DNA of 64,000 nt from Solwaraspora sp. WMMA2056 (GTDB lineage Bacteria > Actinomycetota > Actinomycetes > Mycobacteriales > Micromonosporaceae). Shown here piece by piece: positions 24,379-50,461 of this stretch. The notes beneath the pieces are model-generated. The model did not search any database. It was not told the DNA's origin and was given only the letters and a program-made list of their open reading frames with translations. Position numbers and translations under genes: made by a program. Numbering within the stretch: the first letter of the stretch is position 1; every line of letters starts with the position of its first letter. The stretch is from contig NZ_CP128360.1 of the NCBI RefSeq assembly GCF_030345095.1, forward strand, positions 310,001 through 374,000, written 5' to 3'.

Positions 24379-24737
24379 GCCCGGCTCCGGGTGAGGGTGA
24401 CCGCGACGTCGGCGAACTCGTGCGGGATCGGTGCCTGCGGTTTGTGGACGGTGACCGTCGCGGTCCGGACCCGGCGGTCGGCCAGGCAGACGGTCGCCAG
24501 CCGGTCGGCCAACGTCTCGATCAGGTTGACCGGCTCGCCGGCCACGACGGCGACGAGCTGGCCGGCGAGGTCCCCGTAGTGCACGGTCTGCTCGACCTGG
24601 TCGGTCCGGGCCGCCGGGGCGAGGTCCAGTTCGAGTACGACGTCCACGACGAAGTCCTGGCCGGCCGCCCGCTCCTGCGGGTAGACGCCGTGCCGGCCAC
24701 GGGCCCGCAGCCCGGTGAGCTGGATCCGGTCAGTCAT
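24375..24737 (-). CDS. folB: Dihydroneopterin aldolase
   Basis: Cleaves dihydroneopterin to the HPPK substrate and glycolaldehyde. 120 residues with IQLTGLRARGRHGVYPQERAAG at the N-terminus, the catalytic Glu in HGVYPQE and the Lys in VTVHKPQAPI. It overlaps folP and folK by 4 bp each, so the three enzymes are tightly coupled. Confidence 0.94.
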   Translation of the reverse strand: MTDRIQLTGLRARGRHGVYPQERAAGQDFVVDVVLELDLAPAARTDQVEQTVHYGDLAGQLVAVVAGEPVNLIETLADRLATVCLADRRVRTATVTVHKPQAPIPHEFADVAVTLTRSRA

Positions 24738-25660
24738 CGTCGGCTCCCGTGATCGGTTCCGTGGGTCGGCTGGCGATGGTCGGGCCGGTGGCTCGCGACG
24801 GTCGTCGGCTGTGGGAGGCCGACGGTGAGCGTGGGGCGACCGCTGGCCTGCCAGACGGCGAGTGCGTCGACGGTGTCCCGGACATCGTGGACGCGGACCC
24901 CCCAGGCACCGGCGGCGACGGCCAGCAGGCTGGTCGCGGTGGTCGCGGCGGCCCGCTGGTCCACCGGGCGGGGCGTGCCGTCCGGATCGGCGAGCAGCCG
25001 CCCCAGGTAGGACTTGCGGCTGGCGGCGAAGAGCAGCGGGTAGCCGAGGCTGAGTAACTCACCCAGGTGCACGGTCAGCTGCCAGTTGTGTTCCGGACGT
25101 TTGGCGAAGCCGAGGCCGGGGTCGACGACGATCCGCTCGGCGGCCACTCCGGCGGCGAGCGCGGCGTCGACCCGCGCGGCGAGTTCCGTGCGGACCTCGG
25201 CGACCACGTCGCGGTAGTCGGCCAGATCCTGCATCCGGTCGGAGTGGCCCCGCCAGTGCATCAGGATCCACTGGCAGCCGGCGGCCGCGACCACGGCGCC
25301 CATCGCCGGGTCGGCCAGGCCACCGGAGACGTCGTTGACCACGCTCACCCCGGCGGCGAGCGCGGCGTCGGCCACCCGGGCCCGGGTGGTGTCGATGCTC
25401 ATCGGTACGCCGGCGGCGGCCAGCTCGCGGATGACCGGCAGCACCCGGGCCACCTCGGTCTCCGGGTCGACCCGCTGTGCTCCGGGGCGGGTGGACTCGC
25501 CGCCGACGTCGACCAGGTCCGCGCCGTCGCGGTGCAGCCGGACCCCGTGCGCGACGGCGGCGTCGAGGTCGGCGTACCGCCCGCCGTCGGAGAAGGAGTC
25601 GGGCGTGACGTTCAGGACGCCCATCACGACCGGCCGGGTCGGGCGTAGTAGATCTGTCAC
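24734..25660 (-). CDS. folP: Dihydropteroate synthase
   Basis: Condenses the pterin pyrophosphate with p-aminobenzoate; target of sulfonamides. 308 residues from the GTG at 25660. The TIM-barrel signatures are MGVLNVTPDSFSDGGRY, DVGGESTRPGAQRVDPETE, SIDTTRARVADAALAAG and DPGLGFAKRPEHNW. The frame continues upstream without a start and is not coding there. In M. tuberculosis folE lies directly upstream; here about 13 kb of secretion-like genes intervene, so folP needs its own promoter in 25661-25990. Confidence 0.95.
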   Translation of the reverse strand: MTDLLRPTRPVVMGVLNVTPDSFSDGGRYADLDAAVAHGVRLHRDGADLVDVGGESTRPGAQRVDPETEVARVLPVIRELAAAGVPMSIDTTRARVADAALAAGVSVVNDVSGGLADPAMGAVVAAAGCQWILMHWRGHSDRMQDLADYRDVVAEVRTELAARVDAALAAGVAAERIVVDPGLGFAKRPEHNWQLTVHLGELLSLGYPLLFAASRKSYLGRLLADPDGTPRPVDQRAAATTATSLLAVAAGAWGVRVHDVRDTVDALAVWQASGRPTLTVGLPQPTTVASHRPDHRQPTHGTDHGSRR

Positions 25661-25990
25661 GGGTAGACGGTACCGGCGCACTTCGTGGCCGGACGCGACC
25701 GGGCGCGGTGGGTACCCTCGAATCAGACAACGGTCACGGGCGGCGCTGTCGGTCTGGTTCCACGCAGCTTGTACCAGACAAGGGTGGCCCGTACGCTTTG
25801 CAGTTGCCGGGGGCCAGTGGGGGCGAAGGTTGAGAAGAAGGGCCGAAGTTGGACAAAGTGCCCAAAAGTCGTCACCGTACGCGGTGACCGTCGGACACAG
25901 GGTCGACATCCGCGGCTCGACCCACGACGCCCACAAGGTGTGACAACTGCAGTGCCCCGGCTCTGCCGGCCGCACACCGGGGAGGTTCCC
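25661..25990. other. Divergent intergenic region, folP / T4SS-like operon
   Basis: 330 bp without a convincing gene. It must hold the folP promoter (minus) and the promoter of the secretion-like operon (plus). Visible are a 6-bp-arm inverted repeat in GTCACCGTACGCGGTGAC at about 25871-25888, a CTTGT-ACCAG-ACAAG inverted repeat near 25768-25782 and a locally A-rich stretch at 25826-25868. No classical -35/-10 pair stands out. Confidence 0.5.
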
Positions 25991-26314
25991 ATGATCGAAA
26001 CGACGCTCGTCGCAGCGGTCCACGCCAGCGTGGTCTCCGCCATCGACACGCTGTCGCTGCTCGCCGCGCCCACCGGCGAGCCGGACACGCCGACCGGTTT
26101 CAACACCGAGGGCGTCGTCTCCTTCCTCGCCAGCAAGGTCGCCCCGATCCTGCTGGCCGTACTGGGCGTGATCTTCATCGGGCGGGCCAGCAAGGGTGAG
26201 ATCTCCAAGGTGCTGACCAGCTCCGCGATCGCGATCGTCGGCCTGGCCTTCATCGCCGGAGCCGCGACCCTGTTCTTCGTCGGCGACTACCTCATCAACC
26301 TGATGTTCGAATAG
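25991..26314 (+). CDS. Small VirB2/TrbC-like membrane protein
   Basis: 107 residues from the ATG at 25991, preceded by GGGGAGG. A polar N-terminal 45 residues is followed by two hydrophobic helices (VAPILLAVLGVIFIGRASKG at about 53-66 onward, and AIAIVGLAFIAGAATLFFVGDYLI). Size, topology and first place before a PrgI/VirB3-like gene fit a VirB2-type pilin or pilin-like subunit. Sequence similarity alone would not settle it. No Cys. Confidence 0.65.
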   Translation: MIETTLVAAVHASVVSAIDTLSLLAAPTGEPDTPTGFNTEGVVSFLASKVAPILLAVLGVIFIGRASKGEISKVLTSSAIAIVGLAFIAGAATLFFVGDYLINLMFE

Positions 26315-26329
26315 AGCGCGGAGCACGAG

Positions 26330-26692
26330 ATGCGGCTGCGCACCGACGACGACATCTACCGGGCCCGGTTGGTCTACCTGGGCCCGCCTGGCTACACGCT
26401 GCCGGTCCACCTGCCGTACGCCCAGTACGGGGTCTTCATCCTACTTGTTCCGTTCTACATGTTCGTCCACTGGGCGTTCACCCTCAACGTGGAACTCTTC
26501 CCCGCCTGGGAGATCGCGCTCGCGATCGTCACCACCTCCTTCATCTTCCGGTACGTCGACCCGGACCGGCCGGCCCGGATGGTCGTGCGCACCGCCCTCA
26601 CCGACTGGCGCCGGACCCGGGAACCGGCGACCGAGCAGCGGGACCCACGCCTGATCGCCAGCCACATCAGGATCCGGGAGGAGTTGGCATGA
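26330..26692 (+). CDS. PrgI/VirB3-like inner-membrane protein
   Basis: 120 residues with two closely spaced transmembrane helices (YGVFILLVPFYMFVHWAFTL and WEIALAIVTTSFIFRYV) between a short polar N-terminus and a basic cytoplasmic tail. This is the VirB3/PrgI layout, and the gene precedes a VirB4-like ATPase as in other T4SS loci. GGAGCACGAG precedes the ATG. Its stop overlaps the start of a 23-codon ORF by 4 bp. Confidence 0.7.
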   Translation: MRLRTDDDIYRARLVYLGPPGYTLPVHLPYAQYGVFILLVPFYMFVHWAFTLNVELFPAWEIALAIVTTSFIFRYVDPDRPARMVVRTALTDWRRTREPATEQRDPRLIASHIRIREELA

Positions 26693-26760
26693 CCTGCACC
26701 GGCATCCGGACGCCGGCCCGCACCCACTCCGGCAGCCACGCGTGCGAGGCGATGGCATGA
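26689..26760 (+). CDS. Candidate 23-residue ORF coupled between VirB3- and VirB4-like genes
   Basis: ATG at 26689 shares ATGA with the stop of the upstream gene. GGAGG lies 8 bases upstream at ideal spacing. The frame ends at 26760, where its TGA overlaps the ATG of the VirB4-like gene, again as ATGA. The peptide begins MTCTGIRTPARTHSG and ends HACEAMA, with two Cys and two His. The exact fit of both overlaps argues for translation. It may be a functional small protein or simply a relay carrying ribosomes to the ATPase start. Confidence 0.6.
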   Translation: MTCTGIRTPARTHSGSHACEAMA

Positions 26761-29700
26761 GTCGATCATTCCCGCCGGGCGGCCCCCGCCCGGCAGGTCA
26801 GCCGGCCGGCAACGGCGGTAACGGTAAGCGATCACACGACTACCGCGACCCCGACGTGGACGAGGCGGCCGAGACCGAGCTCGTCACCAGCCCTAGCCAC
26901 GGCGCGGTCGCGGTCTTCCAGACCCCGTCGGCGACCCGCGGCCCCCGCGCCGGCCGTACCGCCGCCGGCCCGGCCGCCACGCCGACCTCGCCGCACCACC
27001 CGGTACCGCCCCCTCGGGCCTCCGGTGTCACCGACCACGGCGACATCGACTCGCCCTTCCTCGACCTGTTCTCCGGCACCACTCCCACCACCCAGCGGCA
27101 CCGGCCGGCGATCCAGCCCCCGAACCGGCCCACCGCCATCGAACCGCCGACCCGGCCCGCCGCCATCGAGCCTCCCGCGCGCCCCGCCGAGATCCCACCG
27201 CCGGCCCCACCCCGCGCCACCGCACCGCCGGCCCGCTCCGGGCCCACCCAGACCCCGCCGGCCCGCTCCGGGCCCACCGGACCCCCGCCGGACCAGATCG
27301 GCACCGCGCTGACCGGCCCCACCACCGATCACCCCGATCCGGCGACCCGACGGCGCAGCGCGGCACCACCGCCCCGTACCGCAGCAGAGGCCGCCGCCCC
27401 GACGGAGCTGGCGGCCCCGGCACCGCACGGGCCCGGCACCGCCCCGGCGGACCGCGCGGGCCACCCGTACCCCGACGCACGCCCCGCACCGACGGCACGG
27501 ACGACGCCGCCGGACCGCCCGGCACCACGGACCCGGACCTCGCCGGACCAGGTCGCGCCCGGCGACGTCCCCGGCCCGCCGGCGGCCGGCCGGGACACCG
27601 CCGGCCGGCCCGATCCCACCGTCGGCCCGCCCGCCGGCCGAAGCGGCCGGGACGCCCCCGTCGCCGGCCCGACGGCCGACAGCACCGCTGCCCGGACGGC
27701 CGACGACACCGCCGACCCCGCAGCCGGTGCCGGTGTCGCGCCGGCCACCACCGGTGGCAGACGACCACGGCGGCGACCCAAGGCCGAGACCTCCCGGTCC
27801 GACAAACCGATCAAGCCGGTCCCGGTACGCCCCCCGAAGGTCAAGTTCACCGACCGCGACCCCGCCGCCGAACTCGCGATCACCGAGATCGCCGGCCACC
27901 TGACCTTCACCCCGAACACCGTCACCGCCTGGTACTGGCTTCCGGAGGTGCGCTGGGCCTTCCGGCCCGACGCCGAACGGGAGGTGCTGCTGTCGGCGAT
28001 CTCCGAGCAGTACGCCGGACTCGCCGGCTTCCGGCTGCACCTGCGCCGCACCACCCGACCGTTCCCCGCCGACGAATGGGCCCGGACCATCGACGGGCTC
28101 ACCGCCCACCCGCTGGCCGCCGTCGACGGAGCCGCGTCCTGGGCCGACCACCTGGTCGCCGCCCAACGACACCTGATGTCGGTCAACCACGCCGAAGGCC
28201 AGACCTACCTGGGCATCACCTTCGCCCGGCGGTCGCTCGGCGACTCGCTGTCCGAACGGGTGCTGCGGTTGTTCGGCCGGGGCGTCGCCGAGAGCGAACG
28301 CCGCCGGCTCGGCCGGATGGTCGACCAGTTCGACGAGGTCCTCGGTGCCTTCGGGATGCGCGGCCGGCGGGTCACCGCCGGCGAACTCGAATGGCTGCTC
28401 TACCGGTCGGTCGCCCTGTGCATGACCCCACCGACGATGCTGTCGCCGGTGCGCGACGGCAACTGGGACCGTGGCGACCTGCTCGCCCTCACCGAACAGA
28501 TCGAGCGCTACCGCACCCCGTACGGCTCGACGCTCAAGCTGGTCAACCGGATGTCCGGCGAGGAACGCCACGTCGCCGTGCTGGCCGTGGGCCGGATGGA
28601 ACCGCTGGAGATCCCCGAACGGCACGAGCCGTGGATGCACTTCCACGAGCGGCTGCCCTGGCCGATGGAGATCTCCTCCCGGATCGACCTGCTCGGCCCC
28701 ACCGACTCGTTCCGCAACCTGGAACACCGGCTCCGCATGATCCGGTCGCAGCAGCTCGACTACGCCGAACACGGCATCGACGCCCCGCCGGAGCTCGAGC
28801 GCCTGGCGAAACGGGCGCTCAACATCGGCGACGAGATGACCACCGGACTGCCCGTCGAGTCCGCCCGGGCACACGGCTGGCACCGCATCGCGGTCGGCGG
28901 CCGCACCCGGGAGGAGTGCCTGGAACGCGCCCGCCGGCTCATCCAGCTCTACTCCCGCGAGATGCGGATCTCGCTGCAGCACCCGAAGAACCAGGACTGG
29001 CTGGCCCGCGAGTTCATCCCCGGCGAACCGGTGGCCAACACCGGCTACATCCGACGGATGCCGGTGAAGCTGCTCGCCGCCGCGCTGCCGCAGGCGGCGT
29101 CCACCGTCGGCGACCGCCGTGGCGACCTGATCGGCCGGACCGCCGGCACCTGCCGCCGACCCGTCTTCCTCGACCTGCACTTTCCGATGGAGGTCCGGGA
29201 ACGGTCCGGGCTCGCCGTCTTCGTCGCCGAACCCGGCGGTGGCAAGTCGACCCTGCTCGGTGCCCTCGGATACCTGGCCGCCCGCCGGGGCGTGCAGGTG
29301 ACGCTGCTCGACCCGTCCGGGCCGCTCGCCCGGCTCTGCGCCATGCCGGAGCTGCGGCCGTACTCGCGGGTGCTCAACCTGACCGGCTCCGAACAGGGCA
29401 CGTTGGCGCCGTACTCGCTGATCCCGACCCCGATCCGGGCGGAGTTCGCGACCGGCGCCGCCGGCGACCGCGAGTACGAGATCGCCGTCTCCAACGCCCG
29501 GGCCGAACGTCGGATGCTCGTCCAGGACATCTGCATGATGCTGGTGCCGCCGCAGGTGGCCCGGGAATCCTCGACCGCCACCCTGCTGCGGCACGCGGTC
29601 CGGCAGGTCCCCGCCGAGGAGACCTCGACCCTCGACGACGTCGTCGCCTGCCTCAACGGCATCGACGAGGACGGCCGGGAGCTGGCGAACCTGCTGCTGG

Positions 29701-30398
29701 ACACCGCCGAGATGCCGTTGGCGCTGCTGTTCTTCGGCTCCCCGTCGCCCGGGCTGCTCGGCGCCGACGCCGCGCTGACCGTGATCACCATGGCCGGGCT
29801 GCGGCTGCCGGACCTGAAGATCGAACGCGAGTACTGGTCGGCGGAGGAGGCCCTGGCGCTGCCGATGCTGCACACCGCGCACCGGCTCGCCGTCCGGCGC
29901 TGCTACGGCGGCTCGATGTCGTCGCGCAAACTGGTCGGCCTCGACGAGGCGCACTTCATGGAGGGCTGGCGCTCCGGCCGGTCCTTCCTGGTCCGACTCG
30001 CCAGAGACTCCCGCAAGTGGAACCTCGCGGCGCTGGTCTCCTCACAGAACCCGAAGGACATCCTCGGCCTCGACGTGCAGAACCTGGTCTCCACCGTCTT
30101 CGTCGGACGCATCGCCGAGGACGAGGAGATCGCCGCCGAGGCGCTACGCCTGCTGCGGGTCCCGGTCGACGACGGTTACGAAGCGACCCTCGCCTCGTTG
30201 TCCAGCGTAGACAGCTCGTCGGCGGCCCGCCTCGGCTTCCGTGAGTTCATCATGCGCGACGTGGACGGCCGGGTGCAGAAGGTCCGGGTCGACGTGTCAT
30301 ACGTGGACGGCCTGCTCGACCATCTGGACACCACGCCCGGCACGCCGCAGTCGGCACCGGCAGGACTGCCATCAGCGCTCAGCGACCTGGAGGTGTGA
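26757..30398 (+). CDS. VirB4/TraC-like secretion ATPase with long Pro-rich N-terminus
   Basis: 1213 residues from the ATG at 26757; a GTG 15 bp upstream is also in frame. Residues 1 to about 350 are disordered and dominated by Pro, Ala and Arg with PPARSGPT-type repeats. The VirB4-like part follows: an N-terminal domain at about 370-800, Walker A FVAEPGGGKSTLL near 825, Walker B KLVGLDEAHF near 1060 and a conserved SSQNPKDI segment. It should power pilus assembly or substrate transfer at the inner membrane. Known T4SS VirB4 proteins do not carry such an N-terminal extension. One base separates its stop from the next gene. Confidence 0.82.
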   Translation: MSRSFPPGGPRPAGQPAGNGGNGKRSHDYRDPDVDEAAETELVTSPSHGAVAVFQTPSATRGPRAGRTAAGPAATPTSPHHPVPPPRASGVTDHGDIDSPFLDLFSGTTPTTQRHRPAIQPPNRPTAIEPPTRPAAIEPPARPAEIPPPAPPRATAPPARSGPTQTPPARSGPTGPPPDQIGTALTGPTTDHPDPATRRRSAAPPPRTAAEAAAPTELAAPAPHGPGTAPADRAGHPYPDARPAPTARTTPPDRPAPRTRTSPDQVAPGDVPGPPAAGRDTAGRPDPTVGPPAGRSGRDAPVAGPTADSTAARTADDTADPAAGAGVAPATTGGRRPRRRPKAETSRSDKPIKPVPVRPPKVKFTDRDPAAELAITEIAGHLTFTPNTVTAWYWLPEVRWAFRPDAEREVLLSAISEQYAGLAGFRLHLRRTTRPFPADEWARTIDGLTAHPLAAVDGAASWADHLVAAQRHLMSVNHAEGQTYLGITFARRSLGDSLSERVLRLFGRGVAESERRRLGRMVDQFDEVLGAFGMRGRRVTAGELEWLLYRSVALCMTPPTMLSPVRDGNWDRGDLLALTEQIERYRTPYGSTLKLVNRMSGEERHVAVLAVGRMEPLEIPERHEPWMHFHERLPWPMEISSRIDLLGPTDSFRNLEHRLRMIRSQQLDYAEHGIDAPPELERLAKRALNIGDEMTTGLPVESARAHGWHRIAVGGRTREECLERARRLIQLYSREMRISLQHPKNQDWLAREFIPGEPVANTGYIRRMPVKLLAAALPQAASTVGDRRGDLIGRTAGTCRRPVFLDLHFPMEVRERSGLAVFVAEPGGGKSTLLGALGYLAARRGVQVTLLDPSGPLARLCAMPELRPYSRVLNLTGSEQGTLAPYSLIPTPIRAEFATGAAGDREYEIAVSNARAERRMLVQDICMMLVPPQVARESSTATLLRHAVRQVPAEETSTLDDVVACLNGIDEDGRELANLLLDTAEMPLALLFFGSPSPGLLGADAALTVITMAGLRLPDLKIEREYWSAEEALALPMLHTAHRLAVRRCYGGSMSSRKLVGLDEAHFMEGWRSGRSFLVRLARDSRKWNLAALVSSQNPKDILGLDVQNLVSTVFVGRIAEDEEIAAEALRLLRVPVDDGYEATLASLSSVDSSSAARLGFREFIMRDVDGRVQKVRVDVSYVDGLLDHLDTTPGTPQSAPAGLPSALSDLEV

Positions 30399-30399
30399 C

Positions 30400-32328
30400 G
30401 TGGCGAGGACCGCGACCCGGTGCACCGCACTACTGCTCGCCGTCCTGATCACCGCCGTGGCGAGCGTCTCCTGGCCGGTCCTGGGTGCCGGATCCGCCGC
30501 ACAGGCCGCCCCGATCGCCCCGATCGCCCAACTGCCGGCCCAGGATCCGACGAACCTGTGCCCGGTGGAGGCGTGGCAGGCCGACTTCCGGGCCTGCCTC
30601 GACCGGCTGGAGGACGTCGGTTCCGCCCGCGCCCAGTGTCTGAAGCCACCGGCCCCGAGCGCTCCCGACTCCGGCTTCGGCGGCTGGTTCGCCACCCAGC
30701 CGGAGCAGACCGAGGGCGCGGGCGGGCTGTACATGAACTACGGATACGCCGGCTACCGGTTCCCCACCTACGACCTCGACGGCGGCTGCGCCTCCAGCGT
30801 GACCAACGTCGACGTCAGCGCGTTCAACGGCCTCGCCAACTTCGAGATGATGGTGGCCACGGCGATCATCGGCGCCTCGAACGCGATCCGCGAACGCGCC
30901 TGGGATCCGGGCACCATGTACGCCTGGGCCGACCCTCTGGTGGAGCAGGCCACCACCGCCATCTACGAGGAGGTCTTCACCGTCTTCGGCCTGATCACGC
31001 TCTGCGTGGTCGGCCTCTACCTGATCTGGCGGTCCCGGCAGTCCGACATGAGCAACATGATCACCACTGCTGGCTGGGCGGTCCTGATCATGGTGGTGGT
31101 GACGGCGATCGCCGCCTGGCCGGTGCGCTCGGCCAACCTCGCCGACGGCGCCCTGACCAGCACGCTCGGCGTCGTGCACGAAGCGGTCGGCCCCCGCGCC
31201 GTCGAGATTCCGGCCGAGGACTGCCCGGAGGCAGACGCGCAGCGCTGCGCCGACCAGCGCCCGCCGGCCGTGCGGGCCAGCGACACCATCACCTCGTCAA
31301 TGGTCTACCGCAACTGGCTGCGGGGGGTGCTCGGGTCGGCGGACAGCCCGACGGCCCAGAAGTACGGCTTCGCGCTGTACGACGCCCAGGCCTTCACCTG
31401 GGCCGAGATCGAGGCGATCCGGGCCGACCCGGCGCGACGCGACGCCATCATCGCGGCCAAGAACCAGCAGTGGATGAAGGTGGCCGAGCAGATCCGGACC
31501 GAGGATCCGGAGGCGTACGAGCACCTGCAGGGCATCCGCGAGATGGACCGGGTCGGTACCGGCCTGATCGCGATCTTCGCTGCGGTCATGTTCGCCATGT
31601 TCGACCTGGCGGCGTCGCTGCTCGTGCTGCTGGGCTTCCTGCTCTTCCGCTGGGTGGTGGTCGCGGCGCCGATCCTCGGCACCATCGGGCTGCTGCGCCC
31701 GGCCGGGGCCGGGATGCGCCGGCTCGGCAACGCGGTCGTCGCCGCGATCTTCAACATCGCGATCTTCGGTACCGGCGCGGCCGTGTACCTCTTCGCCGTC
31801 GATCTGATCATGAGTACGCCGACCCTGCCGGGCTGGCTGCAGGTGGTGCTGATCTGGCTCTGCGGCATGGTCGGCTGGCTGTTGCTGCGCCCGTACCGGC
31901 GGATCACCGAACTGGGCGGTCGCGGCGGCGCCGGTGGCGGCAACTCCTGGCACCTGCGCTACTTCCGGGAGACCCGGGAGACCCGCGAGCCGGAACAGGT
32001 CGTGGTCCGTACCAAGGGCAGTGACCGTAGCACGGTGGTCAAGCAGTCCACCGTACGACCGGAGGCCCGCCTGGAGGATCCGGCCGCCGACAAGCCACGC
32101 ACCGACAGCACCGCCGCCCCGGTGCGGGAACGCCCGGACGGTCGCGAATCGGCCCCGGAACCGTCGCCGGAGCGCTCGACGGCCCCGGCGGCCAGACCGC
32201 GCCGCACTCCGACCTGGACGGCTCCCGACGTGCCGGCCGAGCAGCAGCAGTACGCCGTCTACCGGCCGGGCAGCGCGCCGAAGAGCACCGAGGCGCCGAA
32301 GCCACGGATCCGTACCGAGGCGCGGTGA
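30400..32328 (+). CDS. VirB6/TrbL-like polytopic membrane protein
   Basis: 642 residues from the GTG at 30400, preceded by GGAGG. A signal-like hydrophobic N-terminus (ALLLAVLITAVASVSWPVLG) leads to an exported Cys-containing segment (CPVEAWQADFRACLDRL). Transmembrane helices follow at about 190-250, 395-450, 455-485 and 490-515, then a basic disordered tail of about 110 residues. This is the VirB6/TrbL channel-component layout. The frame is open upstream, but that part overlaps the ATPase gene and is not coding. Confidence 0.72.
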   Translation: MARTATRCTALLLAVLITAVASVSWPVLGAGSAAQAAPIAPIAQLPAQDPTNLCPVEAWQADFRACLDRLEDVGSARAQCLKPPAPSAPDSGFGGWFATQPEQTEGAGGLYMNYGYAGYRFPTYDLDGGCASSVTNVDVSAFNGLANFEMMVATAIIGASNAIRERAWDPGTMYAWADPLVEQATTAIYEEVFTVFGLITLCVVGLYLIWRSRQSDMSNMITTAGWAVLIMVVVTAIAAWPVRSANLADGALTSTLGVVHEAVGPRAVEIPAEDCPEADAQRCADQRPPAVRASDTITSSMVYRNWLRGVLGSADSPTAQKYGFALYDAQAFTWAEIEAIRADPARRDAIIAAKNQQWMKVAEQIRTEDPEAYEHLQGIREMDRVGTGLIAIFAAVMFAMFDLAASLLVLLGFLLFRWVVVAAPILGTIGLLRPAGAGMRRLGNAVVAAIFNIAIFGTGAAVYLFAVDLIMSTPTLPGWLQVVLIWLCGMVGWLLLRPYRRITELGGRGGAGGGNSWHLRYFRETRETREPEQVVVRTKGSDRSTVVKQSTVRPEARLEDPAADKPRTDSTAAPVRERPDGRESAPEPSPERSTAPAARPRRTPTWTAPDVPAEQQQYAVYRPGSAPKSTEAPKPRIRTEAR

Positions 32329-32334
32329 CCCCGG

Positions 32335-32883
32335 ATGCGCGCCGTCATCGCCTTCCTGACCCGGTTCCTCTTCCGGTCCCGGGTCGGGCTGGCGATCCTG
32401 CTGCTCGTCGTCGTGGTCAGCGTGATCGGGGTCGGGCAGGTGGTCGGTCCCGGTGACGGTGCCGTCCGGCCGCCGTTGGGCAACCCCGGTCCACAACCGG
32501 CGCTGACCATCGACCCGACCGCCGGTGACGACGGCATCCAGTCGGTCGCCCCGCCGCCCGACCCGGTGACCAGTCCGGGCGCGCCGGAGCCGCAGACCGT
32601 CGCGATGGACTTCGCGACCGAATGGATCCGGCGCGATCTCGCCCCGGAGCAGTGGCACCGGGGGCTGCGCCCGTACGTCACCGCCGAGCTCGCCGACAAG
32701 CTGGTCGGAGTGGACCCGGTGGTGGTGCCGGCGGAGCGGTTGACCGGGGAGCCCGCCGTCGTGCCGTACGCGACGAATCTGGTCGAGGTGGTGATCGACG
32801 TGGACTCCGGCCTGCTGCGGCTGCGGCTGACCGGCCCGGACGGGATCTGGTTGGTCGACGGGGTGGACTGGGAGCGGGGATGA
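32335..32883 (+). CDS. Single-pass membrane protein with NTF2/VirB8-like domain
   Basis: 182 residues. One transmembrane helix (VGLAILLLVVVVSVIGVG, about 17-34) is followed by a Pro/Gly linker and a globular domain of about 95 residues (FATEWIRRDLAPEQWHRGL ... VEVVIDVDSGLLRLRLTG). Topology and NTF2-like flavour match VirB8-type periplasmic scaffold proteins. The stop overlaps the next start by 4 bp. Confidence 0.6.
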   Translation: MRAVIAFLTRFLFRSRVGLAILLLVVVVSVIGVGQVVGPGDGAVRPPLGNPGPQPALTIDPTAGDDGIQSVAPPPDPVTSPGAPEPQTVAMDFATEWIRRDLAPEQWHRGLRPYVTAELADKLVGVDPVVVPAERLTGEPAVVPYATNLVEVVIDVDSGLLRLRLTGPDGIWLVDGVDWERG

Positions 32884-34007
32884 GCGACGCCGAACCCAGT
32901 CTCCGGTCGCGGGCCGGCCGGCACGTCGCCCTCACCGTGGCGCTGACCGCGACGATGGTGCTGCTCTGCTGCACCGGCGGGATCGGCGCCGTGCTGTTCA
33001 GCGAGGACGCCGACCAGTCGACCCTGTTCAGCACGTTCGGCTGCGGCCGGGAGGGGCCGGTCGACCCCGACCGTGCGCCCCGGATCGGGCCGTACGGGCC
33101 GGACCAGATCGCCAACGCGGTGGTGATCATCAACGTCGGTGCCGAAATGTCGGTCCCGCCGCGCGGCTGGGTGATCGCGGTCGCCACCGCCATGCAGGAG
33201 TCCGCCCTGCGCAACCTGGGGAATCTGGGGTCCCGCAACGATCACGACTCGCTCGGGCTGTTCCAGCAGCGGCCGAGTCAGGGCTGGGGCACCCCCGAGC
33301 AGTTGCAGGACCCGGCGTACTCGTCCGGGAAGTTCTACGACAAGCTGCTCACCATCGACGGCTGGGAGACGATGGCGTTGACCGTCGCCGCGCAGCGCGT
33401 ACAGGTCAGCGCCTTCCCGGACGCCTACGCCAAGCACGAACCCCTCGCCACCCGGATCGTCAACGTCCTCACCGACGGCGCGGCCCGCGCGGTGAGCGGG
33501 CCCGACGGGCTCCGCTGCGCCGCCGACGGGGAGATCGCCGCCTCGGGGTGGACCAGGCCGGTGCCGGGCAACGTCGGCTCCGGGTTCCGCACCAATGCCC
33601 GGCCGGGACACAACGGGGTGGACATCGCCCAGCCCAAGGGGGTGCTGATCCGGGCCGCGGCGGCAGGCCGGGTGATCGTCTCGCGGTGCGACCCGGACCA
33701 GTACGGCCGCCTCAACTGCGACGTCGACGGCTCCACCGACACGGGCGGCTGCGGCTGGTTCGTGGACATCCTGCACGCCGACCAGGTGATCACGAGATAC
33801 TGTCACATGGTGCAACGGCCGGACGTCGCCACCGGAGACCTGGTCGACGCCGGGCAGGTGATCGGCAAGGTCGGCTCCAGCGGCAACTCGTCCGGACCGC
33901 ACCTGCACTTCGAGGTGCACATCGACGGCGACCGGAGCCGACGCGGCGCGGTCGACCCGGTGCCCTTCATGCGGGAGCGGGGCGCGCCACTGGGTGAGAG
34001 CGGCTGA
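32880..34007 (+). CDS. Bifunctional wall hydrolase: transglycosylase-like plus M23 peptidase
   Basis: 375 residues from the ATG at 32880. An N-terminal transmembrane anchor (VALTVALTATMVLLCCTGG) is followed by a lytic-transglycosylase-like domain at about 75-190 (ATAMQESALRNLGNLGS, with a catalytic-type Glu, and DSLGLFQQRPSQGWG) and an M23/LytM domain at about 225-345 (HNGVDIAQPKG metal-site HxxxD, and GPHLHFEVHIDG with HxH). It would open peptidoglycan for the secretion channel, like VirB1, but with two activities in one chain. Overlaps its upstream neighbour by 4 bp. Confidence 0.85.
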   Translation: MSDAEPSLRSRAGRHVALTVALTATMVLLCCTGGIGAVLFSEDADQSTLFSTFGCGREGPVDPDRAPRIGPYGPDQIANAVVIINVGAEMSVPPRGWVIAVATAMQESALRNLGNLGSRNDHDSLGLFQQRPSQGWGTPEQLQDPAYSSGKFYDKLLTIDGWETMALTVAAQRVQVSAFPDAYAKHEPLATRIVNVLTDGAARAVSGPDGLRCAADGEIAASGWTRPVPGNVGSGFRTNARPGHNGVDIAQPKGVLIRAAAAGRVIVSRCDPDQYGRLNCDVDGSTDTGGCGWFVDILHADQVITRYCHMVQRPDVATGDLVDAGQVIGKVGSSGNSSGPHLHFEVHIDGDRSRRGAVDPVPFMRERGAPLGESG

Positions 34008-34028
34008 TCGACCGGGCGGGAGGACACG

Positions 34029-34631
34029 ATGACCCGGGAACCGATGCCGGATCCCTTCGCCGACCAACCCGACTGGGCGCCCCGACCACCCCGGCCACTG
34101 GCCCTGGTGCCGGCCGCCGCCGAGCCGGAACTGCGCGGTCGGCGGGTGCTGATCGGGCTGCCCGGCACCGGTTGGCGCGGCGATCTGCGCGGCGACGAGA
34201 AGGTCGTCCAGCGCAGCCGCACCTACGTGCCGGTGCTACCGGAACAGGAGTGGTACCGGGCGGAGTCCGAGGGCGTCGAGGTGTTCGCGCCGCTGGTGCC
34301 GGCGGACCGGGTCTGGGTCGAGCGGCCGGACGAGCGGCTGACCGCCCCGCCGCGCGACGACGTCCTGTCGCGGCTGGTCTCGTTGGACGCCCCGGCGGCC
34401 CGCTTCCCGGTGCCTGCGGTCGACGCCGGCCCGCTCGCCGGCCGCCGCATCGTGCACATGGACGACGGCACGGAACGCCGGGATCTGCGCGCGGTCACCG
34501 AGCTGCACACCGGCGCCGACGGCGACATCTGTGTCCGGGCCAGCACCGAGCTGGCGTGGTACCGCTGGGTCTGGACCGGGCAGCCGCCGGAGACCATCGA
34601 ACTGCCGGTGCATCTGGTCTGGGTCGAGTGA
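34029..34631 (+). CDS. Unknown protein with two tandem about-65-residue repeats
   Basis: 200 residues, soluble, preceded by GGAGG. After a Pro-rich start there are two similar halves. The first runs from LRGRRVLIGLPGTGW to PADRVWVE (about 38-100), the second from LAGRRIVHMDDGTERRD to LPVHLVWVE (about 137-200). Each half has a GRR start, a WYR segment and a VWVE end. I do not recognise the fold. It is the last plus-strand gene of the secretion-like operon, so it may be a cytoplasmic accessory. Confidence 0.7.
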   Translation: MTREPMPDPFADQPDWAPRPPRPLALVPAAAEPELRGRRVLIGLPGTGWRGDLRGDEKVVQRSRTYVPVLPEQEWYRAESEGVEVFAPLVPADRVWVERPDERLTAPPRDDVLSRLVSLDAPAARFPVPAVDAGPLAGRRIVHMDDGTERRDLRAVTELHTGADGDICVRASTELAWYRWVWTGQPPETIELPVHLVWVE

Positions 34632-34644
34632 CGCGTCGCCGCGC

Positions 34645-35196
34645 TCACGTCAACCGCTCGACCTGGCAGACCCGCCAGCCGTCCTCGTCCACCGTGGTGA
34701 TCCGCCAACGGTCGGTCAGCCGGGTGATCAACCCGCCGGTCGGCAGCCTCCGTTCCACCTCCACGGTCAGCACCGCCCGGTCCTGTCCCGAGGTCTCGGT
34801 GGTCAACTGCCCGATCGTCATCGCCGACAGGGTGCCCTGACGCTGCTCCCACTCGACGGTGTCGGTGCGGTAGGCGGTCAGCGGCGCGATCGACGGTTGC
34901 TCGCAGAGATGCAGATCGGCCACGACATCGTCGCGCTGCAACAGGTACGCGTCGAGGAAGCTCAGCGCCGCCGTCTCCGGCGTGCTGCGGTCGGGGGTGG
35001 TGACGTTGGCGTAGAGCACGAAGGCGACGCCGACCCCGCCCATGCAGAGCAGGGCGAGGGCACCGGCGACCAGGACCACCGCGAGGCGGAGCCGGCGACC
35101 GGGTGGGACCACCACCGGGGGGGTTACGCCCGGAGCGGTCCGCTGCCGGGGCACCCAGCCCCGGCGTACGGGGGTCGCCGGTCGCGTCTGCTCCAC
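34645..35196 (-). CDS. Membrane-anchored NTF2-like protein
   Basis: 183 residues. A basic, Pro-rich N-terminus (RGWVPRQRTAPGVTPP), one transmembrane helix (LAVVLVAGALALLCMGGVGVA, about 38-58) and an extracytoplasmic domain with an NTF2/DUF4878-like look (ETAALSFLDAYLLQRDDVV, WRITTVDEDGWRVCQVERL). It is convergent with the secretion-like operon and divergent from the FtsK-like gene. A TACTGT -10 candidate (35203-35208) lies six bases before the GTG start, again suggesting a leaderless transcript. Confidence 0.65.
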   Translation of the reverse strand: MEQTRPATPVRRGWVPRQRTAPGVTPPVVVPPGRRLRLAVVLVAGALALLCMGGVGVAFVLYANVTTPDRSTPETAALSFLDAYLLQRDDVVADLHLCEQPSIAPLTAYRTDTVEWEQRQGTLSAMTIGQLTTETSGQDRAVLTVEVERRLPTGGLITRLTDRWRITTVDEDGWRVCQVERLT

Positions 35197-35412
35197 CCTT
35201 CGACAGTATCCGTCGACAACGTGAGACTGAATAGCGGAGCGGCGTCCTCATTGGTCACATATCCGGCGAAGCACCCCGACGAGTGCCGATCAATCGTGAA
35301 ACATCGGTTGCCGCCGACCGGCTCCCAGATCGCTGGGATACCGTCTCAGGTCTGGACTCGACCGGCACCCGCCAGATCGGGTTGGCGAACAAGCAGTAGG
35401 CAGGTGGTCGAG

Positions 35413-38166
35413 ATGGGCATTGACCTGGACCGCGCCGCCGCGCTGCACCGCTCGGCTGCCGCCGGCGTCGCCGCCCTGACGCTGACCGGCCACCACCCGG
35501 CAGCCGGCACCGACCGGCCCGGCGTCGACCGTGACGGCGTCGACCGTGACGGCGCTGACCGTGCTGGCGCCGACCGCAACGGCGTCGACCCGGGCACGAG
35601 CCAGCACGAGATCGCCGAACAGTTACGCAGCCTCGCCGCCCGGCTGGCCCCCGGCTGGTGGGGCGCGCCGCTGGACGCGCAGACCCCGGCCCTGCCGCTC
35701 GGCGACGTGGACCAGGCCGGGCACGTCCGGATCGGGATCGCCCAGCCGCTCGACGACGCCCGCTTCCCGGTCGTCGTACCGCTGCTGGGCACCGGGCACC
35801 TGGCCGTCGACGGCGACGTCCGGGACAGACGGGTGGCCGGACTGCTCCGGGCGCTGGTGCTCCGGCTGCTGGCCGCCGTACCGCAGCGCCGCCTGACGGT
35901 ACGGGCGGTGGACGGCATCGCGACAGTGCCCGGCGGCGTACTGGCCCCGTTCGGGGCGCTGATCGACGCTGGCGTACTGCGCCCAGCGGCGACCCAGACC
36001 GCCGGGCTGCGATCCGTGCTGGCCGAGGCGGAACAGTGGATCCGTCCGGCCCGACCGACCGTCGCCCGGCACCACCGGCACGGCCGGTTCATGGTCCTGG
36101 TGATCGCGTCACTGCCCGAGGACACCGAGGGCGTCGATCTCGACCGGATCGCCCGGCTCGCCCAGGCCGGCCCCGAACACGGTCTGCACCTGGTGGTCGC
36201 GGGTTGGCCGCCGCCGCCGTTGAGCCTCGAGCAGACCCGCGCCGACCTGCCCCGCAGCACCACGGTCCGGCTGCGCAATCCGCACGTGCTGGTCGGCGAC
36301 CCGCCAGGCGAGGCCTTCGGCGATCCCGCGTCGGCCGGGCCCGGCCGGCCGGGCGGGTTGGCGGTACCGGTGTACCTCGACGCGGACCCACCGCACCACC
36401 TCGTCGACCGGGTCAGCGCCGAACTGGCGGCGGCCGGTCCCCCGGCCCGCCCGACGCTCACCGAACTCCTGCCCGACCCGGCCACCGGGTGCTGGACCGA
36501 GTCGGCGGCCGACGGGCTGGTGGTCGTCGCCGGTTTCGACGGCCACCGCCAGGTGCCGCTGGGCCTCACCGACGTCACCCCCCACTGGCTGGTCGCCGGC
36601 GAGGCCGGTGCCGGAGTGGCCGAGTTCCTGGTCGACGTCCTGTACGGGCTCGCCGTCCGGTACCCGCCGGACGAGCTGACCGTCCATCTGGTGGACCTGT
36701 CGCCCGGGGAGTCCTTCGCCGGCGTCATGTCCGCCGCAGCCGAGCCGGGCGGGCCACCACAGGCCGAGTCGGGCCAGCCACCGCAGGCCGGGCCGGCCTG
36801 GTTGCCGCACGTCGCGTCGGTCGGCGTCGAGGCCGACCCGGAGTACGGACTGTCGGTGCTGCGGCTGCTCGCCGCCGAGGTGGAGCGGCGCACCTGGCTC
36901 GCCGGCCGCAGCGGCTCCAGCCGGTTCGCCGACCTCGCCGCACACGCCCGGATCGGCCGAGTCCTCTGCGTGATCAAGGATCCGGGGCCCCTGCTCGACC
37001 GCTCCAGCGACACCGCCGCCGACGCCGTCGACCTGCTGGACCGGATCGCCCGGGGCGGCCGCGGCTGCGGCGTCCACCTGGTGCTGGCCGACTCGACGGG
37101 CGGCCGACCGGCCGACGACACCGACAGCGGGACGGCCGGGCCAGCCGAGCCGGCCGCCGGTGCGCCCTGGTGGCAGGACGACACGCTGCGCGGCCACTTC
37201 CCCGTACGGGTGGCGCTGCCCGGCGGTGACTGGCTGCTGGAGCCGGACAACGACGCGGCGGCCGGCCTGCCGCTGGGCAGCGCGGTGGTGAACACCGCCG
37301 GTGGTCTCGGCGGGCCCCGGGGTGCCACCCGGGGCCACGAGCGGACCGTCGCCTTCCCGGACCCGTACGCGGACCGGCCGGAGCTGGCCCGGCTGCGCCG
37401 GCAACTCTGGTCCCGGGCCGACCCGCAGGCCGGTCCGCCGCAGGTGTTCGCCGGGTACGCCGAACCGATGTCGGCGGCGGGCGCGTCGAAAACTGGCGAC
37501 GGCACCGGGCCGCCGGTGTGCCGGCTCGGTCGGGCGGTGGAGCTGCCGGAGCGGGCAGCCGAGTTCCGGTTCGAACGCGCCCCCGGGCGGCACCTGGCCA
37601 TCTTCGGCTCCCGTACGCGGACGGCCGAACTACTGGCCACGGCGGTCATCAGCCTCGCCGGGCAGCACGAGCCGGGCACCGGCCGGCTGATCCTCGTGTC
37701 GTTCGGCGAACATGACCGGCCGCAGCTCGACAGCCTCGCCGCCGCCGTCGACGGTCGGCTGACGACGGAGATCGTCGATCTGGACGTGCTGCGGACGCTC
37801 GGCGACACGTCCGGACCCGCCTACCTGATCATCGCGACGGCCGACGTACTCGAACTCGGTGGGCCGGCCGCCGCCCGGCTGCGCAACCTGCTGGATTCCG
37901 GACCGGCGCGGGGGGTCCACCTGCTCTCCTGCTGGGAACGGGTGGACCCGTTCGTGGCGTTCCTCGGGCCGAGCCCGGAACTGATCGCCGGCATCGTGCT
38001 GCTCGACCTGCCCGTGGCCGCAGACACCGGCGGCCCGGACCGGCTGCCGCCGTGGCGTCCCCGGGACCGTCGTGGCCTGCTGTACGACGCCCAGACCGAC
38101 CGGCGCACGGTCTTCGTGCCGTACGGCCGGGGCACGGTGTCCGACCACGGGGAGGTGCCGTCGTGA
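35413..38166 (+). CDS. FtsK/EccC-like protein with three degenerate P-loops
   Basis: 917 residues from the ATG at 35413 (an in-frame GTG lies 9 bp upstream). Three FtsK/HerA-like modules can be followed by their strand patterns. In each the Walker A region lacks the essential Gly-Lys-Ser/Thr: GTGHLAVDGD near 122, GEAGAGVAEF near 395 and GSRTRTAELL near 730. Walker B-like hydrophobic strands remain (FMVLVIASLPE, VLCVIKDPGP, AYLIIATADV). The protein therefore looks like a non-hydrolysing relative of EccC. VDRDG pentapeptide repeats lie near residue 40. It overlaps a small membrane protein gene by 4 bp. Confidence 0.72.
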   Translation: MGIDLDRAAALHRSAAAGVAALTLTGHHPAAGTDRPGVDRDGVDRDGADRAGADRNGVDPGTSQHEIAEQLRSLAARLAPGWWGAPLDAQTPALPLGDVDQAGHVRIGIAQPLDDARFPVVVPLLGTGHLAVDGDVRDRRVAGLLRALVLRLLAAVPQRRLTVRAVDGIATVPGGVLAPFGALIDAGVLRPAATQTAGLRSVLAEAEQWIRPARPTVARHHRHGRFMVLVIASLPEDTEGVDLDRIARLAQAGPEHGLHLVVAGWPPPPLSLEQTRADLPRSTTVRLRNPHVLVGDPPGEAFGDPASAGPGRPGGLAVPVYLDADPPHHLVDRVSAELAAAGPPARPTLTELLPDPATGCWTESAADGLVVVAGFDGHRQVPLGLTDVTPHWLVAGEAGAGVAEFLVDVLYGLAVRYPPDELTVHLVDLSPGESFAGVMSAAAEPGGPPQAESGQPPQAGPAWLPHVASVGVEADPEYGLSVLRLLAAEVERRTWLAGRSGSSRFADLAAHARIGRVLCVIKDPGPLLDRSSDTAADAVDLLDRIARGGRGCGVHLVLADSTGGRPADDTDSGTAGPAEPAAGAPWWQDDTLRGHFPVRVALPGGDWLLEPDNDAAAGLPLGSAVVNTAGGLGGPRGATRGHERTVAFPDPYADRPELARLRRQLWSRADPQAGPPQVFAGYAEPMSAAGASKTGDGTGPPVCRLGRAVELPERAAEFRFERAPGRHLAIFGSRTRTAELLATAVISLAGQHEPGTGRLILVSFGEHDRPQLDSLAAAVDGRLTTEIVDLDVLRTLGDTSGPAYLIIATADVLELGGPAAARLRNLLDSGPARGVHLLSCWERVDPFVAFLGPSPELIAGIVLLDLPVAADTGGPDRLPPWRPRDRRGLLYDAQTDRRTVFVPYGRGTVSDHGEVPS
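35515..35592 (+). repeat. Coding 15-bp repeats (VDRDG)
   Basis: Four to five in-frame 15-bp units encode VDRDG or close variants near the N-terminus of the FtsK-like protein. They form a short flexible, acidic-basic linker. Confidence 0.6.
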
Positions 38167-38792
38167 CCGCGCCCGCCGACTGGGCGGAGTACGCCGCGAC
38201 CGTCCGGCGACTCGCCCGGCTGCGCCAGGCCCCGGCGGTACCGCCGCCGGGGGCGGCTCCCGGTGCGCCGGGGGCATCGTCGGCCATCACGGACCGGCTG
38301 GCGGCGCAGCGGCACCAGCTGATCGCGTTCGGCGTACCGCCGGGGGCCCTGGACCCGGCGGCGGAGGAGGTGGCCGCGACGCGGGCCGCGCTCGAGTCGG
38401 GTGGTGCCTCCGCCCGCCAGGCCACGGTGGCGCGGACCGTGGCCGCGCTGGACGGGGCGGCGGCCGCACTGGCCGGGCCGGCACCGACCGGCGGCGGTAG
38501 CCCGGCGTGGCTGCGCAACCTGCTGGTGTACGGGCCGTTCGCGATGATCGTCGTGGTGATCCAGATCGCGTTGTTCGCCGCCGCCGGCGACCAGGTGCCG
38601 CTGCGCTACGTGCTCGGCTGCGGGGTGGTGATGCCGGCGGTGGCGTTCGGTCTCGGCTGGCTGGCCGTCGGGTTCGTCTACGCCGGCCCTGGTCGGCAGG
38701 TGGACCGTACGCCGGTGGCCGGCCTCGCCGTCTGCTCCGCTCCGCTGCTGCTGGCGCTCGTCCTCGCGGCCGTCGTCGCCCTGCTGCGGTGA
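38163..38792 (+). CDS. Three-helix membrane protein coupled to the FtsK-like gene
   Basis: 209 residues from a GTG sharing GTGA with the upstream stop. The N-terminal 110 residues are Ala-rich and helical (WAEYAATVRRLARLRQAP, AAEEVAATRAALESGG). Three hydrophobic segments follow (FAMIVVVIQIALFAAA, GVVMPAVAFGLGWLAVGFVYA, LLLALVLAAVVALL). No known domain is recognised. The coupling suggests it anchors the FtsK-like protein to the membrane. Convergent with folE. Confidence 0.7.
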   Translation: MTAPADWAEYAATVRRLARLRQAPAVPPPGAAPGAPGASSAITDRLAAQRHQLIAFGVPPGALDPAAEEVAATRAALESGGASARQATVARTVAALDGAAAALAGPAPTGGGSPAWLRNLLVYGPFAMIVVVIQIALFAAAGDQVPLRYVLGCGVVMPAVAFGLGWLAVGFVYAGPGRQVDRTPVAGLAVCSAPLLLALVLAAVVALLR

Positions 38793-38817: not shown

Positions 38818-39444
38818 TCAGCTGTGGATGATCAGGCTCATCGCTTCGGCCCGGGACTTGGCGTCCCGCTGGAACACGCCACGGACGGCGGAGGTGATCG
38901 TCCGGGCTCCGGCCTTCTGGATGCCGCGCATGGCCATGCACATGTGCTCGCACTCCAGTACGGCGACCACGCCACGCGGCTCCAACCGGGCCATCAGCGT
39001 GTCGGCGATCTGGGCGGTCAACCGTTCCTGGACCTGCAGCCGCCGCGCGTAGACCTCGACCAGCCGGGCCAGCTTCGACAGCCCGGTGATCCGCCCGGTG
39101 GTGCCGGGGATGTAGCCGATGTGCGCCACGCCCCGGAACGGCAGCATGTGGTGCTCGCACAGCGACATGACCTCGATGTCGCGGACCAGGACGAGCTCGT
39201 CGTGGTCGGCCTCGAAGGTCGTGGTGAGCACCTGGCCGGCGTCGGCCCGCAGTCCGGCCAGCAGTTCGGCGTAGGCGCGGGCGACCCGCCCCGGCGTCTG
39301 GCGTAACCCGTCGCGGTCCGGGTCCTCGCCGACGGCGATCAGGATCTCCCGTACGGCGCGTTCGATGCGGCCCAGGTCGACGGAGCGTTCGATCGGGGTG
39401 CCGTTGAGTTTGCCGTTGATCAGGCGGGCGGCGAGATAGTCCAA
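38818..39444 (-). CDS. folE: GTP cyclohydrolase I
   Basis: First step of folate synthesis (GTP to dihydroneopterin triphosphate). Core motifs: [41 protein letters not shown] (zinc Cys and His) and [17 protein letters not shown] (second zinc Cys). The start is unclear. No ATG or GTG is available between ftsH and the conserved core. The first standard codon is TTG at 39444 (208 residues), which lies in the arm of a 16-bp hairpin. A CTG at 39498 overlapping the ftsH stop would give 226 residues. It follows ftsH directly but is separated from folP by about 13 kb. Confidence 0.93.
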
Positions 39445-39481
39445 CGCGTCGTCGTCCGGTTCGGTCGACGACGCGTTGGAC
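39439..39481 (-). promoter_or_regulatory. 16-bp perfect hairpin at the ftsH-folE junction
   Basis: Arms 39439-39454 and 39466-39481 are perfectly complementary with an 11-base loop. In the transcript the hairpin starts 13 nt after the ftsH stop, and its 3' arm contains the candidate TTG start of folE. No U-tract follows. It could be an attenuator or terminator, or a structure hiding the folE start. Confidence 0.7.
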
Positions 39482-39494
39482 GGTGTCGGGCTGC

Positions 39495-41510
<2,016 letters not shown>

Positions 41511-48873: not shown

Positions 48874-48916
48874 CCGGCTGAACCCAGCCCCCCCCCGGGT
48901 GGGCTGCCGGCCACGC
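48874..48916. terminator. Possible terminator between ppa and eccD
   Basis: CAGCCC and GGGCTG flank a run of ten C residues in the 43-bp gap between convergent genes. The stem is short (6 bp) and lacks a T-tract, so this is weak. Confidence 0.35.
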
Positions 48917-50335: not shown

Positions 50336-50461
50336 GGCACCTCCGTTACGCACAGCTGCACTGGCCGAACAGACCGGAGCACTGTATCCACTTTCGATAC
50401 ACTGGGGAACACCACGGTGTGTCCGTTGCGGACGACGCAGCGTGCCGTGTTAGCTGAGTCG
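50336..50461. promoter_or_regulatory. Divergent eccD/eccC promoter region
   Basis: Contains GTATC-CACTTTC-GATAC (5-bp arms) near 50388-50404. Its right arm overlaps a TACACT -10-like element for the plus strand (about 50400). A single operator could therefore control both transcripts. No clear -35 element was identified. Confidence 0.4.

Follow-up and report, generated by a model that had tools for sequence, protein, structure and literature searches.

A chromosomal VirB-type machine between folP and folE of Micromonosporaceae: a transfer apparatus possibly domesticated for the cell envelope

Introduction

The Micromonosporaceae are a family of soil bacteria that produce antibiotics, and in one of them, Solwaraspora sp. 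WMMA2056, genes resembling a type IV secretion system (T4SS) lie between the folate genes folP and folE. What is such a machine doing there: is it part of a conjugative element, or a resident of the chromosome with another role? We analysed a stretch of 64,000 nt (hereafter the window; forward-strand positions 310,001–374,000 of contig NZ_CP128360.1, from a genome of 7.0 Mb), and coordinates are window positions unless another locus is named. A first-pass annotation, made from the letters alone, had read the cluster at 25991–38792 as a vertically inherited apparatus rather than a conjugative element. The whole of our evidence is best explained, with a probability that we put at roughly 55%, by a plasmid-type transfer apparatus that was domesticated in the ancestor of the Micromonosporaceae and is now an envelope machine that does not move DNA.

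Results

Core genes of the machine

Open reading frame (ORF) analysis and gene prediction placed ten genes across 25991–38792, nine of them on the plus strand. The boundaries drawn by the first-pass annotation proved right: the first ATG stands at 25991, behind the ribosome site GGGGAGG, and the last co-oriented ORF stops at 38792. From 25991 to 34007, six genes form a tight plus-strand run:

25991–26314, plus strand: VirB2-like small membrane protein, 107 aa (ORF, ribosome site, hydrophobic segments, plasmid relatives)
26330–26692, plus strand: PrgI/VirB3-like membrane protein, 120 aa (plasmid relatives down to 3e-29)
26757–30398, plus strand: VirB4 ATPase with a fast-evolving, proline-rich N-terminal extension at about 26757–27860 (AAA_10 and 4ag5 profile matches)
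30400–32328, plus strand: VirB6-like polytopic membrane protein (six hydrophobic segments; homologues in other families and on plasmids)
32335–32883, plus strand: VirB8-position protein with one N-terminal membrane segment and an outer domain (topology, plasmid relatives)
32880–34007, plus strand: VirB1-like wall hydrolase with a muramidase-like domain and an M23 peptidase (family and profile matches)

Among these six, firm matches to known families were obtained for VirB4 and the wall hydrolase only. VirB4 matched AAA_10 at 3e-22, above the cut-off, and the TcpF model at 7e-19, far under that model's cut-off; a profile built from 11 VirB4 relatives matched the solved VirB4 structure 4ag5 (1.6e-11), and the CagE_TrbE_VirB Pfam family had no match anywhere in the genome. 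Both motifs are intact (Walker A, PGGGKST, at about 29232–29252; Walker B, LDEAHF, residues at about 29943–29948), so that the VirB4 with Walker A and B which marks a VirB4-bearing T4SS of the monoderm type is present. The open frame around VirB4 differs in length among genomes. The VirB1-like wall hydrolase of such systems is present as well. It matched Peptidase_M23 at 3e-24 and carries the invariant Glu of the muramidase-like domain (codon at about 33198–33200), and the profile of its family matched the solved muramidases 8b2e (7e-23) and 8b2h (1e-20) in the N-terminal half. Lineages differ in the second domain of the hydrolase, either M23 or C40-like (L025, L033 and L143; plasmid annotation), and the muramidase-like half is kept.

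The names VirB2-, VirB3-, VirB6- and VirB8-like are labels drawn from gene order, size and hydrophobic segments or topology. No curated family among the Pfam and NCBIfam models matched the VirB2-like protein. For the VirB3-like and VirB8-like proteins, neither a curated family nor a solved structure gave confirmation, and Pfam scans of the alignments at the VirB8 and PrgI positions returned stray weak matches in one member each. The VirB6-like protein gave a weak, sub-threshold match to CD3337/EF1877 (0.0057). The order and topology of the VirB6- and VirB8-position proteins fit T4SS partners, and the VirB8-position protein has no fold or family match. Thus the profile searches suggested beforehand confirmed VirB4 and the hydrolase, left the VirB3- and VirB8-like proteins unmatched and the VirB6-like protein under threshold.

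Distribution and genomic site

In an even sample of 101 family genomes (89 of good quality, 44 genera), a VirB4 match was found in 93 genomes, in 84 of the 89 good ones and in 41 of the 44 genera; six of the 93 had more than one match. Across the order, 53 of 150 genomes had a match, and all 60 genomes of another family of the order, apparently Pseudonocardiaceae, carried a VirB4 at about 40% identity. A class-wide profile search scored three candidates per genome and was not used for counts.

Loci were compared in a set comprising the best 80 of 536 confirmed relatives, labelled as Micromonosporaceae or as the genera Micromonospora, Verrucosispora, Salinispora, Plantactinospora, Asanoa, Phytohabitans, Actinoplanes and Paractinoplanes. 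The genes folP, VirB2 and PrgI stood upstream in 65 of the 80 loci, that is, in 65 of the 67 with upstream DNA; 13 of the remaining 15 have about 700 bases or less ahead of the match. The check for presence at the same site across the family, which had been proposed with the first-pass annotation, was therefore positive. Over these 65 loci the median identity of the PrgI/VirB3-like protein was 90%. Downstream, folE was found in 56 of the 80 loci, many of the others ending early. Of another 24 family loci, picked to span genera, 18 had folP within the locus.

Two other arrangements were seen. In G697, a second, more distant VirB4 cassette (L170, 64% identity), with no folP found nearby, branches at the base of the family clade. 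In another family of the class (f31; L058 and L186–L188), chromosomal VirB4 clusters have large proteins ahead of VirB4.

Origin and inheritance of the site

The flanking folate genes in the window are:

24734–25624, minus strand: folP, left flank (gene prediction)
38818–39471, minus strand: folE, right flank (gene prediction), with ftsH (39495–41510) next

In all six genomes read from other families (L231–L234, L238 and L240; families f13, f11 twice, f15, f5 and f4), ftsH, folE, folP, folB and folK are consecutive, and folE and folP are adjacent. The earlier claim that the cluster separates fol genes that are adjacent elsewhere thus holds for these outgroup genomes; it had been made for M. 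tuberculosis, where we take folE and folP to be adjacent as well. Five deeper-branching family members (G652, G620, G621, G616 and G655) have ftsH and folE together, with no folP in the stretch read. The cassette is still 12 to 14 kb from folE in G616 and G655 and lies elsewhere in G652, G620 and G621. Because folE and folP adjoin in the outgroup and are arranged in these ways in the deeper branches, the break in the fol operon probably dates from the family ancestor, and some lineages would have rearranged later.

In a VirB4 tree of 43 rows, the 21 family rows made up one clade (100/100), nested in a larger one that they form with f11 and f13, also at 100/100. Plasmid rows grouped with other families, and a long-branch warning makes the deeper joins unsure. 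Distances in VirB4 and FtsH were closely correlated within the family (r = 0.96, Mantel p = 0.0002, 19 genomes), and correlated at r = 0.69 over f1, f11 and f13 (23 genomes) and at 0.71 over all 27. For the 23 genomes, 13 of 20 VirB4 splits also occurred in the FtsH tree; a support threshold of 0.8 leaves 14 splits, 11 of them shared and all compatible. The tree comparison left out a partial FtsH row (G119), and G006 and G080 were unpaired.

Selection was measured as the ratio of nonsynonymous to synonymous substitution rates (dN/dS). Values were 0.01–0.07 for the VirB4 core (ten pairs) and 0.04–0.09 for FtsH (four pairs). The N-terminal extension of VirB4 gave 0.06–0.56 (eight pairs), with 0.36–0.56 in four pairs from the window genus. 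We concluded that vertical inheritance of the machine, free of mobile-element behaviour, is supported, because the distribution, the site, the empty site in the outgroup, the gene-tree agreement and the selection all point to it; on this the first-pass annotation is supported.

Mobility genes

Searches of the whole genome gave no match to TrwC (PF08751), to the relaxase family PF03432 or to VirD4 (PF02534), whereas the same searches matched one, one and five of 14 control genomes, respectively; the searches did not extend to integrases or to relaxases of other families. Direct repeats fell into 22 families, and among the 20 listed the sole pair with copies near both ends (19 nt, 89%) lies inside genes at both. 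Scans of GC and composition and of tRNA genes showed no island signs. The reported lack of a relaxase (for the two families searched), of att repeats and of a composition shift is therefore upheld. In short, we found neither a VirD4-type coupling protein, nor a relaxase of either family, nor variable presence with flanking attachment repeats, the last two having been named in advance as signs of an integrated conjugative element (ICE). A recent ICE or ICE remnant was rejected on the site, the distribution, the repeats, the gene-tree agreement and dN/dS.

The FtsK/EccC-like neighbour

Downstream of the core lies:

35404–38166, plus strand: FtsK/EccC-like protein with lost ATPase motifs (PF01580, 3.7e-13, above the cut-off; TIGR03924, 5e-11, below the cut-off)

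Its closest NCBIfam model is type VII EccC, below the cut-off. In the window, the Walker A lysine has become Val (about 36616–36618) and the Walker B Asp-Glu has become Lys-Asp (about 36976–36981), and so the cluster has no active FtsK/TraB translocase of the kind that an actinomycete integrative and conjugative element (AICE) would carry. The first-pass annotation had seen no active coupling ATPase. Its point about activity stands, with the motifs lost and no PF02534 match in the genome, but the protein is of FtsK/EccC type, not VirD4. A genome-wide PF01580 search matched 23 stretches, and the gene at 35404–38166 was not among them.

Both motifs could be read in 73 of the 80 loci. The lysine and Asp-Glu are kept in 11 of these (Plantactinospora, two; Asanoa, three; Phytohabitans, three; Actinoplanes and Paractinoplanes, three) and the lysine is lost in 62, one of which, M. 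pattaloongensis, still has Asp-Glu. Motifs are lost in Micromonospora, Salinispora and the window genus. Among the further family loci the lysine is kept in six of nine readable ones, the other three being from the window genus. Because the replacement residues of the window genus differ from the usual ones of Micromonospora, the sequences suggest that the ATPase motifs decayed independently in the two. The dN/dS of the gene was 0.23–0.35 in four window-genus pairs and 0.08–0.19 in the other six. The block at 37180–37365 (residues about 593–654), which includes NDAAAGLPLGSAVVNTAGGLGGPRGATRGHER, hardly varies among ten aligned relatives, those with lost motifs among them, which suggests that the protein has retained a non-ATPase role. 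In three Micromonospora loci the FtsK-like position is occupied by an opposite-strand gene whose product, about 1230 aa long, looks secreted (L070, 16520–20221; L082, 16562–20266; L103, 7683–11378).

Related plasmid cassettes

Profiles made from the window and chromosomal loci only were compared with 179 predicted proteins of plasmid stretches and cmd loci (see below). The six plasmid stretches came from Streptomyces sp. 891-h, Streptomyces sp. NEAU-S7GS2, Nonomuraea sp. NBC_00507, Pseudonocardia sp. DSM 110487 and R. rhodochrous (all linear) and from R. qingshengii (circular). VirB4 was present in all six. The 891-h, NEAU-S7GS2 and Pseudonocardia plasmids have all six core genes in the same order, the R. 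rhodochrous plasmid has five (not VirB8), and the Nonomuraea plasmid four (not PrgI and VirB6). On the R. qingshengii plasmid VirB4 alone was matched, the gene finder having missed most genes; by annotation, the order and size of its genes agree with the cassette.

An FtsK/SpoIIIE gene of another family, with intact Walker motifs, lies near the cassette in five of the six stretches, and none was seen in the Pseudonocardia stretch read. We rejected the possibility that the FtsK-like neighbour in the window is this plasmid gene, as the two belong to different families and have the ATPase domain alone in common. No relaxase is listed in any of the six plasmid stretches read, and the R. qingshengii record is typed MOBP. 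Since none is listed, and an FtsK-type gene is found in five, conjugation in actinomycetes may do without a relaxase, and the earlier argument against conjugation from its absence proved weak. The chromosomal version, unlike the plasmid cassettes, is vertically inherited. It looks like the envelope part of a plasmid-type system kept without its DNA pump, and we infer that the direction was from plasmid to chromosome.

Comparison with the cmd operon and other known systems

Chromosomal VirB4-type clusters with a developmental phenotype are already known in Streptomyces. The operon cmdABCDEF (SCO4126–4131) is developmental, and its CmdB is VirB4-like and membrane-bound; changing two lysines of CmdB abolished complementation, which the authors note may reflect protein destabilisation (PMC2782261, in part). 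Most cmd mutants show sporulation defects, and cmdB and cluster mutants show defects in branching, septation and segregation (PMC2782261, in part). By their effects on pigment and aerial hyphae, cmdBCDEF have been grouped with the transglycosylase gene tgdA (PMC6585502, in part).

Like the machine in the window, cmd is chromosomal, and the ATPase domains of CmdB and VirB4 are homologous (profile comparison: probability 93%, E 4.5e-07, 284 columns). In all three cmd loci, CmdE gave a weak match to the VirB8-position profile (2.7e-05, 0.001 and 0.0025), and the hydrolase profile matched a gene near cmd in two of three. These matches fall short of establishing cmd as an orthologue of the machine. 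A cmd primer pattern (up to three mismatches) occurred in 106 of 199 Streptomyces genomes. In contrast, the gene order of cmd is different, and its VirB4 is a short ATPase-domain protein. As the closest published relative with a phenotype, cmd would be the best precedent for our locus, and it points to development; the first-pass annotation had suggested protein export or cell–cell contact.

The plasmid SLP2 of Streptomyces lividans resembles the locus by annotation (an FtsK-like gene, a lytic transglycosylase with C40, a small protein and an ATP/GTP-binding protein), but it is plasmid-borne and the window profiles barely match it (at best 0.012 for the small protein and 0.017 for the ATPase). 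ComB, Bartonella Trw and Ptl are likewise VirB machines without the coupling protein VirD4 that are put to another use, although these are Gram-negative systems (PMC12857230, in part). One gene is annotated virB4 in M. lupini, with no neighbours given (PMC4182475, in part); we infer that it belongs to a locus of the window type. Apart from this gene, the literature searched, in so far as it was available, gave no mention for Micromonospora, and no account of a family-wide site, a folate-operon insertion, a relation to plasmid cassettes or the neighbour's motif loss.

Other features of the locus

The remaining features are:

25769–25797, plus strand: candidate operon promoter, TTGTAC, a 17-base spacer, TACGCT (block conserved when 27 chosen upstream regions from the Micromonosporaceae are aligned to the window)
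34029–34631, plus strand: conserved soluble protein (conservation, plasmid relatives)
34645–35196, minus strand: Rv0361-like membrane protein (NF051431, 5.7e-06, under its cut-off)
38163–38792, plus strand: membrane protein after the FtsK-like gene (ORF; three hydrophobic segments)

The block at 25769–25797 can be read as a sigma-70-type promoter. The Rv0361-like gene runs on the minus strand, and the cluster is therefore interrupted rather than a single operon throughout. The co-oriented operon described earlier holds for the six-gene run, in which VirB4 and the hydrolase are firm and the other four are named by position and topology. The Rv0361-like protein probably stands outside the machine. 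The soluble protein was present in 80 of 80 loci (median identity 65%), and no curated family matched it. It may belong to the system, because it has relatives on two cassette-bearing Streptomyces plasmids (2e-32 and 7e-29; L143, 18533–19159, and L223, 24490–25053). These relatives do not adjoin the cassette there. The protein at 38163–38792 was found in 64 of the 80 loci (median identity 38%). Elsewhere in the window, a 1972-aa ORF at 48776–54694 contains FtsK-type ATPase domains (genome 361926–364160), and a type VII secretion (EccC-like) locus may therefore lie in the same window.

Discussion

On the reading that we prefer, the six-gene core is an apparatus of VirB type, and its relatives are the transfer cassettes found on actinomycete plasmids, which mostly stand beside an FtsK-like DNA pump. 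It would have entered the ftsH-folE-folP-folB-folK operon in the Micromonosporaceae ancestor and has since been inherited vertically under strong purifying selection. Given that VirD4 and relaxases of two families are lacking and that the FtsK-like motifs are lost while VirB4 and the hydrolase are intact, DNA transfer would no longer be performed. VirB4 would supply the power with which a membrane complex of VirB2/B3/B6/B8 is assembled or cycled, and where this complex sits the hydrolase would make openings in the peptidoglycan or reshape it; the outcome would be a wall-spanning channel or a short surface fibre. By analogy with cmd, it may be used in hyphal differentiation or envelope homeostasis. 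The grouping of cmd with tgdA fits a wall-linked machine, and from the evidence on cmd as a whole we propose a VirB4-driven complex with local opening of the wall, used in development. The role of the machine is probably other than DNA transfer and in the cell envelope. A fuller statement is tentative, at slightly less than even odds: that this is a near-universal housekeeping apparatus in a family of free-living monoderms, run by VirB4 only, with a pseudo-ATPase FtsK-like neighbour kept in a large genus, and serving mycelial development or cell–cell exchange, not conjugation.

The machine might instead still be a DNA-transfer channel, in which double-stranded DNA is moved between mycelia, with no relaxase, by a translocase of FtsK/TraB type whose gene lies elsewhere or, in Actinoplanes and others, beside the cassette. 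The pairing of the cassette with an intact-motif FtsK-type gene in five of six plasmid stretches, the intact neighbour in 11 of 73 readable loci, the many FtsK domains in the genome and the TraB-driven chromosome transfer reported in Streptomyces (PMC12857230, in part) all favour such a channel. We nevertheless consider it unlikely, as the neighbour shares the ATPase domain alone with the plasmid FtsK family and no longer has its motifs in 62 of the 73 readable loci, where VirB4 shows no relaxation; moreover, deletion of the Streptomyces cmd cluster is reported, with the data not shown, to have caused no significant change in transfer of an SLP2-derived plasmid (PMC2782261). An equally doubtful proposal is a protein exporter, whose FtsK/EccC-like protein was formerly the substrate-recognising ATPase and later became dispensable. 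That protein is nearest to type VII EccC among NCBIfam models, albeit below cut-off, and residues 593–654 stay nearly invariant where the motifs are lost (ten aligned rows); however, no FtsK-like gene was found beside the cassette in 13 of the 24 further family loci, some of which end early, or in 18 loci of other families (L017–L034). Kinship with plasmid systems and the dead FtsK-like gene are what a decaying ICE would predict. The conserved site, the tree agreement, a dN/dS as low as that of FtsH, and the lack of flanking repeats and of a relaxase of the two families searched make this idea very improbable.

Several observations weigh against a domesticated envelope machine. Eight of the 101 family genomes had no VirB4 match, including three of three in one genus. 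Two draft-genome loci with full upstream DNA (L079 and L133) have no VirB2, PrgI or folP, and unrelated genes run directly up to VirB4, through misassembly or a real rearrangement. Seven of the 20 VirB4 splits, taken with no support filter, conflict with some FtsH split. The FtsK-like gene retains its motifs in several genera, and it was not found in six loci of the 80 (L070, L079, L082, L094, L103 and L138); other genes follow in L070, L082, L103 and L138, and L079 and L094 end early. The other FtsK-type domains in the genome (23 stretches) could serve the machine in trans. As to cmd, profile–profile comparison matched CmdB only and single-profile search added the weak CmdE match, the same set of partner proteins and the same gene order were not found, and the cmdA mutant has no visible sporulation defect (PMC2782261). 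That is, because of the unmatched proteins, the differing order and the cmdA phenotype, the assignment of function by analogy is weak.

In the Micromonosporaceae a machine of T4SS type is about as constrained as FtsH, and loci in which the neighbouring ATPase is intact, inactivated or missing serve as natural variants. These variants make a non-conjugative role directly testable, and the locus connects with the cmd operon, whose mutants mis-sporulate.

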